A stretch of DNA of 64,000 nt from Mesorhizobium sp. M1D.F.Ca.ET.043.01.1.1 (GTDB taxonomy: Bacteria; Pseudomonadota; Alphaproteobacteria; Rhizobiales; Rhizobiaceae), in NCBI RefSeq assembly GCF_003952385.1, contig NZ_CP034444.1:3534001-3598000 (forward strand), read 5' to 3'. Both the position numbers and the translations under genes were made by a program. The notes beneath the pieces were generated by a model that was not told where the DNA came from, did no database searches, and was given only the letters and a program-made list of their open reading frames with translations. This document shows, piece after piece, positions 4,963 through 44,114 of the stretch (the first letter of the stretch is position 1; each line of letters starts with the position of its first letter).

Positions 4963-5173
4963 CGGTCGTCCTTCGATCTCGGTTCGGTTCGACCCGAGAG
5001 GTAGTGCGTTCGCGCCGGGTCGCCAAGCAAAAGTCCAAAGCCAAAAAGCACCCGGGGGCGCATCGCGCTGCCGGGTGTTGGCCTCCAGGATCGGTTTACA
5101 GCTCTGGCCCCAAAGGGCGTCGGCGTCCTGGTCGGCTTTCGCGGAGGTGTACTCGTCGCGGAATTCGTGCGCG

Positions 5174-16872: not shown

Positions 16873-16910
16873 GTCGTTCCGCGGGGCCTTGGCTCCGTCT
16901 CCTTCTTGGA

Positions 16911-17002
16911 GCGAATAGTGAGTAGCGAATAGCGAGTAGGGAATTCCCCGGTCGCCGTCGTACTCTGTTTTCCCTATTCGCTATTCACTATTCGCTACTC
17001 AC
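16911..17002. repeat. Inverted repeat of short 'GAATAGYGAGTAG' words (family R7, copy a)
   Basis: The left arm consists of reiterated words such as GCGAATAGTGAGTAGCGAAT. The right arm is its complement (ATTCGCTATTCACTATTCGC). About 18 unique bases separate them. It fills the gap between sucD and sucA and abuts the sucD stop. Similar constructions with other words are at 40218 and 42390. Confidence 0.6.
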
Positions 17003-17905
17003 TTAACCCTTGATCGCCTCGACGAGCGTCGTGCCGAGCCTTGCCGGCGACGGCGAAACCTTGATGCCCGCTGATTCCATCGCCGCGATCTTGTCTTCCG
17101 CACCGCCCTTGCCGCCGGAGATCACCGCGCCCGCATGGCCCATGGTGCGGCCGGCCGGCGCCGTGCGCCCGGCGATGAAGCCCGCCATCGGTTTCCTGCG
17201 GCCGCGCTTGGCCTCGTCCTTCAGGAACTGCGCGGCGTCTTCCTCGGCCGAGCCGCCGATCTCGCCGATCATGATGATCGACTTGGTCTCGTCGTCGGCG
17301 AGGAACATCTCGAGCACGTCGATGAATTCGGTGCCCTTGACCGGGTCGCCGCCGATGCCGACCGCGGTGGTCTGGCCGAGGCCGACATTGGTGGTCTGGA
17401 AGACCGCCTCATAGGTAAGCGTTCCCGAGCGGGAAACAACGCCGACCGAGCCCTTGCGGAAGATGTTGCCGGGCATGATGCCGATCTTGCATTCGTCAGG
17501 CGTGAGCACGCCAGGGCAGTTCGGACCGATCAGCCGCGAGGTAGAGCGGTCGAGCCACGCCTTGACCCTGACCATGTCCATCACCGGGATACCCTCGGTG
17601 ATGCAGACGATCAGCGGGATCTCGGCCTCGATCGCCTCGATGATCGCTTCGCCCGCGCCCGCCGGCGGCACATAGATGACGGAAGCGTTGGCGCCGGTCT
17701 TTTCCTTGCCCTCGGCGACGGTGGCGAAGATCGGCAGGCTCTCGCCCTTGGAGCCGGTCCAGGTCTCGCCGCCCTTCTTCGGATGGATGCCGCCCACCAT
17801 CCTGGTGCCGTGATAGGCCAGCGCCTGCTCGGTATGGAACGTGCCGGTCTTGCCGGTCAGGCCCTGAACCAGCACCTTGGTGTTCTTGTCGACGAGAATG
17901 GACAT
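17003..17905 (-). CDS. sucD: Succinyl-CoA synthetase, alpha subunit
   Basis: SucD carries the phosphorylated histidine and the CoA-binding domain of succinyl-CoA synthetase. The 300-residue protein starts [21 protein letters not shown], has the conserved IGPNCPGVL, and the catalytic His in [12 protein letters not shown] near residue 250. Its partner SucC is encoded 2 kb upstream at 19935, not adjacent as is usual. The intervening DNA holds five other genes on the same strand; the closest, a VapC-like toxin, ends 27 bases before the sucD start. Confidence 0.97.
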
Positions 17906-22804: not shown

Positions 22805-23051
22805 CGTCATTCTAGGGCGGCTGGCGGAGCCGTCCCTCCAGTCGTCATTCTAGGGCGGAGCAAGGAGCGAAGCGACGCGCGCAGACCCTAGAATCCATTC
22901 CGTGACATAGAAGCGATGCCACGAGGCAGAACGATCTAACAGAGAGGCGTCGGCAAGACTCCACTCTGAACCGCTGCATTCTATGTCCTAAGTCACGGAA
23001 TGGATTCTAGGGTCTGCGCGACGCTTTGCGTCGCTCCGCCCTAGAATGACG
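22805..23051. repeat. Composite palindromic repeat, family R1
   Basis: A partial unit CGTCATTCTAGGGCGG at 22805 precedes a full unit at 22843-22910 and its inverted copy at 22981-23051, separated by 70 bases. Full units contain GGGCGGAGCAAGGAGCGAAG or the complement and end with GGAATGGATTCTAGGG-type sequence. The element fills the gap between the GNAT gene and zapE. A solo relative is at 8938. Confidence 0.7.
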
Positions 23052-23078
23052 AAGGTCACGACAGCTTTAGGCCCCCAC

Positions 23079-29459: not shown

Positions 29460-31340
29460 ATGGCTGGTTTCTTCAAGAAGGTATTTTCGTTCGGCAGGAA
29501 AGAGGTCGTCGAGGAGCGCGTCGACGAGACTGCGCCGCTGCCGCCGATCAAATGGGACGCGCTGGAGGCGCTGAAGCCGGAGGCGCAGCCGGCGCCCCAC
29601 CCTCCCCTCGATGGGGAGGGTCGCCACGAAGTGGCGGGGCGGGGTGACGGCGCCGACGCTGGTGCCGATCGCCCCCACGCCCGAACTGCGCTCGGGACCT
29701 CTCCCATCGAGGGGGAGGTAGAGGCCGCGCCTCAACCGGCTCCCGAGGAACCGAAGCCCGAGCCTTCACCGGCTATCCCACAGCCGCCGGAACCGACAAT
29801 TCCCGCCGAGCCGGAACCGCTGCCGCAGCCCAAGCCGGAAGAAGAACCGCAACCGGCTCCGGAGACACCCGAACCGCCGGCGCCGGAGGTGGTGCCGGTG
29901 CCGCCGGCGGAACCCGAACCAGAGCCGGCACCCGAGCCGCAGCCGCAGGAAGTACCGCCGCCCGCCCCGGTCGAGCCGGAGATCGTGCCCTCGCAACCGG
30001 AGCCCCAGCCGGAACCCGCGCCGGTCGAGATACCCGCGACGGTGCCGGAAATTCCCGTCGAGGCACCCACGCCCGAGATTCCGCCGGCCGAGGTCATGCC
30101 GCCCGTTCGCCAGCCTGCGCCCGTCGAGCCTGAGCCGGTGCGTGCCGAGATCGCTCCGGAGATCGAAGCTGCGCCAACGCCCCACCCTCCCCTCGATGGG
30201 GAGGGTCGCCACGAAGTGGCGGGGCGGGGTGCCAGCGCCGACGCTGGCGCCAGTCACCCCCACCCCCGAGCTGCGCTCGGGACCTCCCCCATCGAGGGGG
30301 AGGTAGGGCCGGCACCCGTCAGTCAACCTTCGCCAAAGCCCGCGCCGTCCGCCGGCAAAGTAACCGTCGCGAAAAAGGTCGAGCAGAAGGCCGAGCCGCA
30401 AAAGGCGCCGGAACCGGCGCCGCGGCGCTCCTGGTTCCAGCGCATGCGGGACGGGCTTGCCCGTTCGTCGCGCGAGCTCACCGGCAACATCGCCGGCGTC
30501 TTCACCAAGCGCAAGCTGGACGAGGACACGCTGCAGGATCTGGAAGACGTGCTGATCCGCGCCGATCTCGGCGTCGAGACGGCCTTGCGCGTCACCGATT
30601 CGCTCGCCTCCAGCCGCTACGGCAAGGACGTTTCCGACACGGAAGTCCGCGCCGTGATGGCGGCGGAGGTCGAGAAGGTTTTGACGCCGGTCGCCAAACC
30701 GCTGGAGGTCGACCTCAGCCACAAGCCGCATGTCATCCTGGTCGTCGGCGTCAACGGCACCGGCAAGACCACGACCATCGGCAAGCTGGCGGCCAAGCTG
30801 ACCGAAGGCGGGCTCTCGGTGATGCTCGCCGCCGGCGATACGTTCCGCGCGGCCGCAATCGAGCAGCTGAAGATCTGGGGCGAGCGCACCAAGTCGCCGG
30901 TCATCGCCTCGAAGCTCGGCGCCGATGCCGCAGGCCTCGCCTATGATGCCTTCGAGAAGGCCAAGGAGGCCGGCTCGGACGTGCTGATCATCGACACGGC
31001 CGGGCGCCTGCAGAACAAGGCCGAGCTGATGGCGGAGCTGGAAAAGATCGTGCGCGTGCTGGGCAAGCTCGATCCGGAAGCGCCGCACACCGTGCTGCAG
31101 ACGGTCGACGCCACCACCGGCCAGAATGCGCTCAGCCAGGTCGAGATCTTCCGCAATGTCGCCGGCGTCAACGGCTTGGTCATGACCAAGCTGGACGGCA
31201 CGGCGCGCGGCGGTATTCTGGTGGCGATCGCCGCCAAGCACAGGCTGCCGGTCTATTTCATCGGCGTCGGCGAGCAGGTCGACGACCTCGAACCTTTTTC
31301 GGCCGGCGAATTCGCCAGGGCGATTGCCGGTGTAGCTTGA
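29460..31340 (+). CDS. ftsY: Signal recognition particle receptor FtsY
   Basis: FtsY docks Ffh-ribosome complexes at the membrane. The 626-residue protein ends in a normal SRP NG domain (from about residue 322): [21 protein letters not shown]-loop [21 protein letters not shown] and [10 protein letters not shown]. The first 320 residues are a Pro/Glu-rich acidic region, which in FtsY mediates membrane contact. It is unusually long because of two in-frame palindromic repeats, residues about 46-88 and 240-283, both translated as [16 protein letters not shown] followed by a degenerate part ending in TSPIEGEV. The start ATG at 29460 is 13 bases after mtaB. Confidence 0.95.
29595..29722. repeat. 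Palindromic repeat R4, copy 1, inside ftsY
   Basis: Starts CCACCCTCCCCTCGATGGGG and ends with ATCGAGGGGGAGGTA; the ends are inverted relative to each other. It has the form of an intergenic repeat but is translated in frame in ftsY without a stop. The middle (GACGGCGCCGACGC) differs from copy 2. Confidence 0.85.
30178..30307. repeat. Palindromic repeat R4, copy 2, inside ftsY
   Basis: Repeats the first 50 bases of copy 1 exactly and about 90% of the whole by eye, in the same reading frame, 585 bases downstream. The end TCCCCCATCGAGGGGGAGG again mirrors the start. Confidence 0.85.
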
Positions 31341-36452: not shown

Positions 36453-36613
36453 GCGCCCCCCTCTGTCCTGCCGGACATCTCCCCCACAAGGGGGGAGATC
36501 AGACGTCGCCGGCGATTTCGCCAGCCTCCAACGTTGAAGGCGGGGCGCCGTCGGCGAAGCTGCCAATCTCCCCACTTGTGGGGGAGATGTCCGGCAGGAC
36601 AGAGGGGGGCGCC
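36453..36613. repeat. Large palindromic repeat between ccmA and ccmB (family R5)
   Basis: The arms CGCCCCCCTCTGTCCTGCCG and its complement frame a centre of about 60 bases. Nested GACATCTCCCCCACAAGGGG (left) is mirrored by CTCCCCACTTGTGGGGGAG (right). It resembles the R4 and R6 elements. It separates ccmB from ccmA by 211 bases, so the ccm genes are not tightly packed here. Confidence 0.75.
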
Positions 36614-41422: not shown

Positions 41423-41608
41423 CCCTTCTCCCCTTGTGGGAGAAGGTGTCGCCGAAGGCGACGGATGAGGGGTGTTCCAGCTTGGCGAAGACATCCGTCG
41501 AGGTAGGGCGCTTGGCGGCAGGATTGCCAGCGTTTCACTCCGCTGGAACACCCCTCATCCGTCTCGGCGCTGCGCGCCGATCCACCTTCTCCCGCAAGGG
41601 GAGAAGGG
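41423..41608. repeat. Palindromic repeat R6 downstream of the DUF1223 gene
   Basis: CCTTCTCCCCTTGTGGGAGA on the left answers TTCTCCCGCAAGGGGAGAAG on the right. Inner arms GACGGATGAGGGGTGTTCC and GGAACACCCCTCATCCGTC also pair. The centre is a unique stretch of about 50 bases. It is placed directly after the stop codon of the DUF1223 gene. Confidence 0.75.
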
Positions 41609-42383: not shown

Positions 42384-42389
42384 AGAGGA

Positions 42390-42499
42390 ACTGGAGAATT
42401 GAAGAACTGAAGAATTGAGGAAAAGAGGCGCTAAGCGCCTGATATAAAATTGTCTTTCTTCAATTCTTCAATTCCCCAGTTCTTCAATTCCCAATTCCC
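42390..42499. repeat. Inverted repeat of 'GAATTGAAGAACT' words (family R7, copy c)
   Basis: Left arm words GAATTGAAGAACTGAAGAAT are mirrored by CTTCAATTCTTCAATTCCCC on the right. The centre is an exact palindrome AGGCGCTAAGCGCCT (42426-42440). It lies between two convergent genes. Confidence 0.6.
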
Positions 42500-43934: not shown

Positions 43935-44114
43935 TGGAAATCCTCTGTTGCTTCTGCCCCGTCCGGTGACAGGTCGCCCGATCATCACTTTGGGATGACC
44001 TCTTCGGGACCAGGCGCCGCTGGCGGGGCTCCAGCATGCCTGCGCAAAATATGAGCGTTCTCGACGTCAAGAACAAGACGGTAACGAGGGGTAACGCTTC
44101 GTGAGATAGCAAAA

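Follow-up and report, generated by a model that had tools for sequence, protein, structure and literature searches.

Palindromic Elements Translated within FtsY of a Mesorhizobium Strain and Their Relatives around DUF559 Nuclease Genes

Two Palindromic Elements Are Translated within FtsY

The window, i.e., the whole stretch of 64,000 nucleotides analysed here, belongs to a host genome of 7.1 Mb on one contig and contains ftsY as an open frame of 626 aa (Table 1). A pair of repeats of 144 nt (29588-29731 and 30173-30316) with 90% identity lies inside the coding sequence, both copies falling in the proline/glutamate-rich linker. Due to their spacing of 585 nt, i.e., 195 codons, the copies share one frame. 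The element proper, named element A, is a chain of hairpins with GTAG at its right end; each copy of approximately 124 bp accounts for about 42 residues, and both together add about 84. This bears out a preceding reading of the window from its letters alone (the sequence-only reading), which had described two in-frame palindromic copies without a stop in FtsY and a lengthening of the protein by about 85 residues. Folding was assessed for copy 2, which is far more stable than its dinucleotide shuffles both as DNA (z -6.0) and as RNA (z -6.8), with none of 200 shuffles equal in either case.

Table 1. Features of the window, in positions of the window; A, D and E denote arm families.
Feature	Position	Strand	Description	Basis
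ftsY	29460..31340	+	MAGFF.. N-terminus; proline/glutamate-rich linker ending near residue 324, followed by the NG GTPase domain	Relatives with FtsY Pfam domains
Family A element, copy 1 (site 1)	29597..29720	+	Translated	Orthologous site unfilled in the alignment of L032, L028, L020
Family A element, copy 2 (site 2)	30182..30305	+	Translated	Orthologous site unfilled in the alignment of L028, L032, L033, L025
Family D gene-less palindromic element	36453..36612	.	Intergenic; outer G-rich tails, inner hairpins	
Family E gene-less palindromic element	41423..41608	.	Follows the end of an open frame; outer hairpins	

With up to three mismatches, the arm pattern of the element occurs at three places in the host genome, two of which are those within FtsY. 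Relatives of the FtsY element outside FtsY in the same genome are a gene-bearing copy (G000:C1:1357413-1357937) and a short intergenic copy (3714005-3714110). In line with the sequence-only reading, the repeats are not confined to FtsY; relatives are found at other places of the host and in other genomes.

Distribution of the Elements among FtsY of Related Strains

Our survey of FtsY comprised 36 loci of the same genus, which was inferred to be Mesorhizobium from the names that databases give to the nearest FtsY proteins and to related loci. A regular expression identified element A in 15 of the 36 loci, with 23 copies in total, a search that overlooks degenerate copies, e.g., in L013, L011, and L027. 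On a tree of the NG domain, for which 35 loci were scored, 12 loci hold an insert at site 1 and 13 at site 2. Two other palindromes, which share the FtsY linker with element A in other species, occur in 20 (element B, PHPPAGTFSPYRDGEK) and 8 (element C, PPSPRPSRGEGKGEG) of the scored loci. The tree requires 7 changes for site 1, 11 for site 2, 10 for B, and 8 for C, numbers that do not separate gain from loss and to which recombination of the linker may have contributed. Codon alignments show filled and unfilled states at site 1 as well as at site 2. FtsY of L018, L040, and L042 contains none of the three elements A, B, and C; together with the truncated L041, these loci were set as the outgroup. 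A comparison of FtsY among relatives had been proposed on the basis of the window, and it reveals inserts that vary, one or both being absent in other species, and that are not conserved throughout. We regard it as nearly certain that FtsY harbors in-frame palindromic elements whose presence varies by species.

At the protein level, a search of 61 genomes for element A returned 40 matches in 26 genomes. By place or open-frame length, 33 of these (22 genomes) were assigned to FtsY, and the other seven are diverged copies outside FtsY, two of them in a gene-bearing A unit. As a separate observation, the FtsY of genome G016 (locus L016) shows a linker segment of approximately 100 residues that is repeated along with element A, such that three A copies are present.

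Translated Copies in Other Proteins

Used as a query, the peptide of element A matched 95 proteins (candidates of about 344-1095 aa), every one with FtsY Pfam domains; element A was seen translated in FtsY only. The peptide of the compound B-C element matched 142 proteins. Among the 120 matches listed, 29 are non-FtsY proteins according to their Pfam domains, namely 23 molybdopterin oxidoreductases, three HrpB helicases, two amidases, and one domain-less protein. Of the 13 non-FtsY proteins inspected, 12 contain all or part of the B-C insert, read in the same frame. Consequently, FtsY is not alone in taking up such elements in frame.

All 23 FtsY copies of element A are free of stops in frames +0, +1, and -0; frame -2 is stop-free in 18 of them, and frames +2 and -1 in two each. 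The copies have a mean column identity of 92%, and their four hairpins show standard pairs in 97.0% of the cells. Paired changes occur in hairpins 2 and 3 (4 pairs, 13 cells; for cells, 0 of 500 shuffles), and further pair types are no more frequent than in shuffles, 498 of 500 being as high. These paired changes may reflect element subtypes that predate insertion.

A DUF559 Gene Lies between Palindromic Arms

The gene-bearing family A copy of the host genome encloses an open frame with the domain PF04480 (DUF559). DUF559 is a nuclease of the Vsr/EDxHD fold with approximately 120-140 aa, and it conforms to the catalytic-domain fold of EDxHD homing endonucleases; six of six proteins scored 104-132 bits with the PF04480 profile, whose curated cut-off is 20.6. 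Membership in a defence system was considered and rejected, the PADLOC matches of the six proteins being partial and weak, with no more than 22.9 bits. PF04480 was found in 30 of 41 relatives with up to eight matches per genome.

Inverted arms bracket 60 of 90 DUF559 loci, and the median unit has 534 bp. The 90 loci are the best matches among the relatives, some split or weak matches being left out, and a bracket is defined by Pfam core coordinates, flanks of 300 bp, and an alignment score of at least 18. Identical settings gave brackets at 1 of 334 displaced places and at 1 of 208 window positions; the sole positive displaced control, in L132, is situated near a second DUF559 fragment. With flanks of 600 bp, 58 of 89 loci exceed a score of 20 (one flank was too short). 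The bounds of our own HMM, which overrun long open frames, yielded 47 of 90 bracketed loci, and the Pfam core coordinates were used instead.

Each arm is composed of a C/T-G/A hairpin, often a second hairpin, and a G-rich tail. A unit of approximately 530 bp thus consists of inverted arms with the DUF559 gene between inward-pointing tails, the G-rich half of the left arm being directed inward in 55 of the 60 bracketed units. A mirror half outside the arms was present on both sides in none of 53 units and on one side in five.

Visual inspection, uncontrolled, showed a C/T-rich hairpin in one or both flanks of each of the 30 unbracketed loci, and 13 of the 30 precede one common downstream gene. 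In all 13 (L096-L099, L101, L119, L121, L122, L103, L108, L123, L127, and L136) the downstream gene is the same MIDHLGI.. gene, and DUF559 adjoins a family D palindrome or hairpin. The DUF559 copy before this gene looks like a settled, possibly domesticated one.

Arm Families Correspond to DUF559 Groups

Eight arm families, named by regular expressions, coincide with eight groups on the DUF559 core tree, one group each. Arm family requires 7 changes on this tree, which is the minimum, against a mean of 34.1 after shuffling; the test includes 53 labelled of 90 rows, with the 7 bracketed units classed as "other" and the 30 unbracketed loci unlabelled. Separate orthologous sites amount to at least seven for family D, two each for C, E, and G, and one each for A, F, and H, and B shares one with C. 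Since many copies of a family stand at one orthologous site, part of the agreement between arms and gene is due to descent. At the site shared by B and C, which is intergenic, either C arms with DUF559-C or B arms with DUF559-B are found depending on the genome (L110, L133, L135, L137, L154 and L151, L155, L160), i.e., arms and gene differ together between genomes.

The FtsY inserts belong to family A. The halves of copy 2 agree with the ends of four DUF559-A units in 83-90% of aligned bases, and the short elements are identical in kind to the unit ends. In the gene-less A and E copies inspected, the order of the arms is that of the gene-bearing unit. The gene-less B, C, and D copies inspected have their arms in the opposite order, with G-rich tails outside in the D and the compound B-C copies, and thus they are not simply gene-bearing units minus the gene. 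For the FtsY inserts we consider it likely that they are gene-less forms of DUF559 units.

The two other palindromes of Table 1 had been taken for relatives of the FtsY element by the sequence-only reading. They are real and similar in kind, but their ends match different families and we reject them as copies of the FtsY element: the halves of the element at 36453 agree with the ends of five DUF559-D units in 82-98% over 51-79 aligned bases, and those of the element at 41423 with the ends of five DUF559-E units in 88-96% over 58-89 aligned bases. Other genomes are needed to see the B and C palindromes, the copies read in frame in three further enzymes, and the DUF559 gene, which is why these escaped that reading.

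The window contains further repeats. A nested inverted repeat at 22842-23052 (arms 22878-22910/22988-23020 and 22842-22861/23033-23052) includes TCGTCATTCTAGGG; it is reminiscent of published CGTC-type repeats and unrelated to the FtsY-type elements. Two inverted repeat clusters at 42385-42499 and 16910-17003 are composed of GAATTGAAGAACTG-like and AGCGAATAGTGAGTAGCG-like units. An Rfam scan of the window at gathering thresholds gave two matches, both on the minus strand and none at the palindromic elements: an ffh sRNA at 5041-5092 (60 bits) and a ybhL leader at 43952-44042 (51 bits, cut-off 50).

Full, Partial and Empty Sites

Whole units are present or absent at two orthologous sites. For 17 of 61 genomes, the match at the A locus ran straight through the unit; an alignment of 13 sequences comprises two full units, three solo arms, eight empty sites, and not a single gene-less pair. 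The E locus, aligned for nine sequences, shows two full units, two gene-less E elements (for one of which, in G002, the left flank alone had matched), three empty sites, and two other elements. The alignments established no target duplication, their junctions at the A locus, the E locus, and the FtsY sites being ragged. Empty versus full orthologous sites do not tell gain from loss.

Element A occurs in FtsY of 13 of 17 genomes with a DUF559-A unit versus 9 of 44 without (Fisher, 8e-5). Corrected for descent, this association is under-powered, with three supported pairs, approximately 2.0 for and 0.2 against. The E locus leans likewise with respect to FtsY element A (6/10 vs. 16/51, p 0.09). 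Further arm copies of family G were found in 7 of 7 genomes with DUF559-G and in 3 of 18 without, a comparison that ignores kinship and in which several copies look orthologous. Short copies of family B do not track DUF559-B, numbering 4, 12, and 1 in genomes with the gene versus 0-10 in those without. For the two consensus patterns tested, copy number is low, with 0-14 per genome.

DUF559 Units beyond the Genus

In a draw across the class, PF04480 was detected in 93 of 289 genomes. 17 of 30 class-wide loci, taken as best matches, are bracketed versus none of 118 displaced controls; L215, which was measured at the wrong place, is scored as unbracketed. In the 13 unbracketed loci, a similar palindrome was noted in at least one flank (by eye, uncontrolled). 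A set of 80 named loci, which includes Bradyrhizobium, Acidovorax, and Xanthomonas, revealed brackets in 37 of 79 measurable loci versus 2 of 148 controls. One locus, L295 of the bacterium isolate RGIG6833, carries AT-rich inverted arms around its DUF559 gene (score 41.5), so GC-rich palindromes may not be a requirement of the arrangement.

Origin of the FtsY Inserts

The explanation we favor somewhat over the others is that the FtsY inserts are MITE-like, gene-less copies of mobile DUF559 units whose spread is driven by the nuclease. A role of DUF559 as mobiliser of the arms is plausible, and we hold it to be evenly balanced. The nuclease would recognise the arms of its own family, as hairpin or cruciform, and would cut either these or a target. 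Copying of the arms, alone or together with the gene, to another location, in many cases directly behind a gene, would then be left to host repair or template switching. Insertions into a gene would persist only when in frame, stop-free, and located in a tolerant segment. We regard the FtsY linker between the membrane-anchoring start and the NG GTPase as one, and the FtsY copies of element A inspected leave three or four frames open. We infer repair-based copying, a direction of gain instead of loss at individual sites, and neutrality of the added peptides.

Palindromes could instead have spread by other means and been invaded by DUF559 as a homing-type gene, the FtsY inserts then being ordinary palindromic repeats. 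The homing endonuclease fold of DUF559 would suit this scenario, as would gene-less E elements at a site that carries the gene in other genomes, DUF559 genes that stand beside rather than inside a complete gene-less element, and short family B copies that also exist without a gene. Against an invasion of existing palindromes speaks the A locus, where 8 of 13 sequences have no palindrome, three a solo arm, two the full unit, and none a gene-less pair, as if arms and gene had arrived together. It also has to account for the agreement of arm family and DUF559 group in eight of eight families and for the joint change of arms and gene at the site shared by B and C, and we consider it rather unlikely. 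A movement by the Y1 tyrosine transposase of REP/RAYT-type elements, suggested by an architecture like that of REP pairs and by the GTAG at the right end of element A, is far less probable still: the gene it calls for, PF01797, was found in 0 of 16 same-genus genomes, the host included, and in 3 of 25 overall.

A purely internal origin, with the inserts as ancestral FtsY sequence or as products of internal duplication, might be suspected from the sharing of sites 1 and 2 by many species and from the three A copies of L016, two of which lie in the longer repeated linker segment. Duplication thus contributes in L016. As a general explanation it is highly improbable: the outgroup loci L018, L040, and L042 are devoid of all three elements, homologous elements are intergenic or surround DUF559 genes, and unrelated proteins share B-C in one and the same frame. 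Finally, the insert could be retained because it is useful, as a hairpin of the ftsY mRNA or as a functional peptide. The very strong predicted RNA fold, the paired changes in hairpins 2 and 3, and the high column identity of the 23 copies are consistent with a function, but presence often changes between close species, other palindromes occupy the same linker, and the paired changes may stem from subtypes that existed before insertion. We deem retention for a function improbable.

Relation to Known Systems

The likeness to Rickettsia palindromic elements, drawn by the sequence-only reading, holds insofar as an intergenic-type palindrome lies in frame in a gene; family membership finds no support, no CGTC tag having been seen. 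According to a 2013 survey (PMC3733652), the RPEs of R. conorii are palindromic repeats that lie in frame within genes whose proteins are likely functional, and CGTC repeats occur mostly in Alphaproteobacteria, apparently without a dedicated transposase. The FtsY elements are likewise palindromic and, judged from open-frame and protein predictions, translated in frame. They differ in their C/T-G/A-rich hairpins, in the several families found per linker, and, with regard to the CGTC repeats, in arms that bracket a gene. The CGTC tag is absent from the ends of all 23 FtsY copies of element A, and the motif CGTCATTGCGAG from loci L087-L226, where shorter motifs gave 15 scattered matches; identity with CGTC REPs thus finds no support.

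With REP/RAYT systems (REPtrons), DUF559 units share inverted palindrome pairs flanking a putative mover gene, gene-less copies elsewhere, and several families per genome. The gene itself is different, an HUH tyrosine transposase in REPtrons and a Vsr/EDxHD-fold nuclease here. As in MITEs, short copies have terminal inverted repeats in common with a longer gene-bearing unit, as seen in families A and E and, with a reversed arm order of the gene-less copy, in D, whereas the parent of a MITE encodes a transposase, PF04480 has a nuclease fold, and the arms are multi-hairpin unlike MITE ends. In comparison with EDxHD homing endonucleases (I-Bth0305I) and Vsr, DUF559 is a small single domain between palindromic arms. 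Caulobacter VsrA (CCNA_02930), a Vsr-like protein with a DUF559 domain, was studied with respect to the DNA damage response of cells lacking the methylase ScmA, and the string "palindrom" is absent from the main text (PMC12907096). The accessible literature searched, including PMC12907096 and PMC9403480, contained no link between DUF559 and palindromic repeats.

Significance

Many bacterial genomes are rich in short palindromes, whose mobiliser is, REP/RAYT apart, often unclear. What is newly seen here is that such palindromes are the arms of approximately 530-bp units around a DUF559 gene, a family which Pfam still labels "of unknown function". C/T-rich palindromes, distinct from the CGTC group, gain a candidate partner enzyme, and the question of their mobiliser becomes directly testable. 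Tentatively, and with rather more doubt than confidence, DUF559 with palindromic arms might constitute a class of transposase-free mobile elements, about 0.5 kb when complete, widespread in Alphaproteobacteria and also present in other groups, from which the C/T-rich palindromes between genes in the host genomes would derive and which would occasionally lengthen proteins by new peptide segments, even essential proteins like FtsY. A complete DUF559 unit would also rank among the smallest complete mobile units. With at least three palindrome families in frame in the linker of one essential GTPase within one genus, FtsY offers a natural series for the study of new protein segments.
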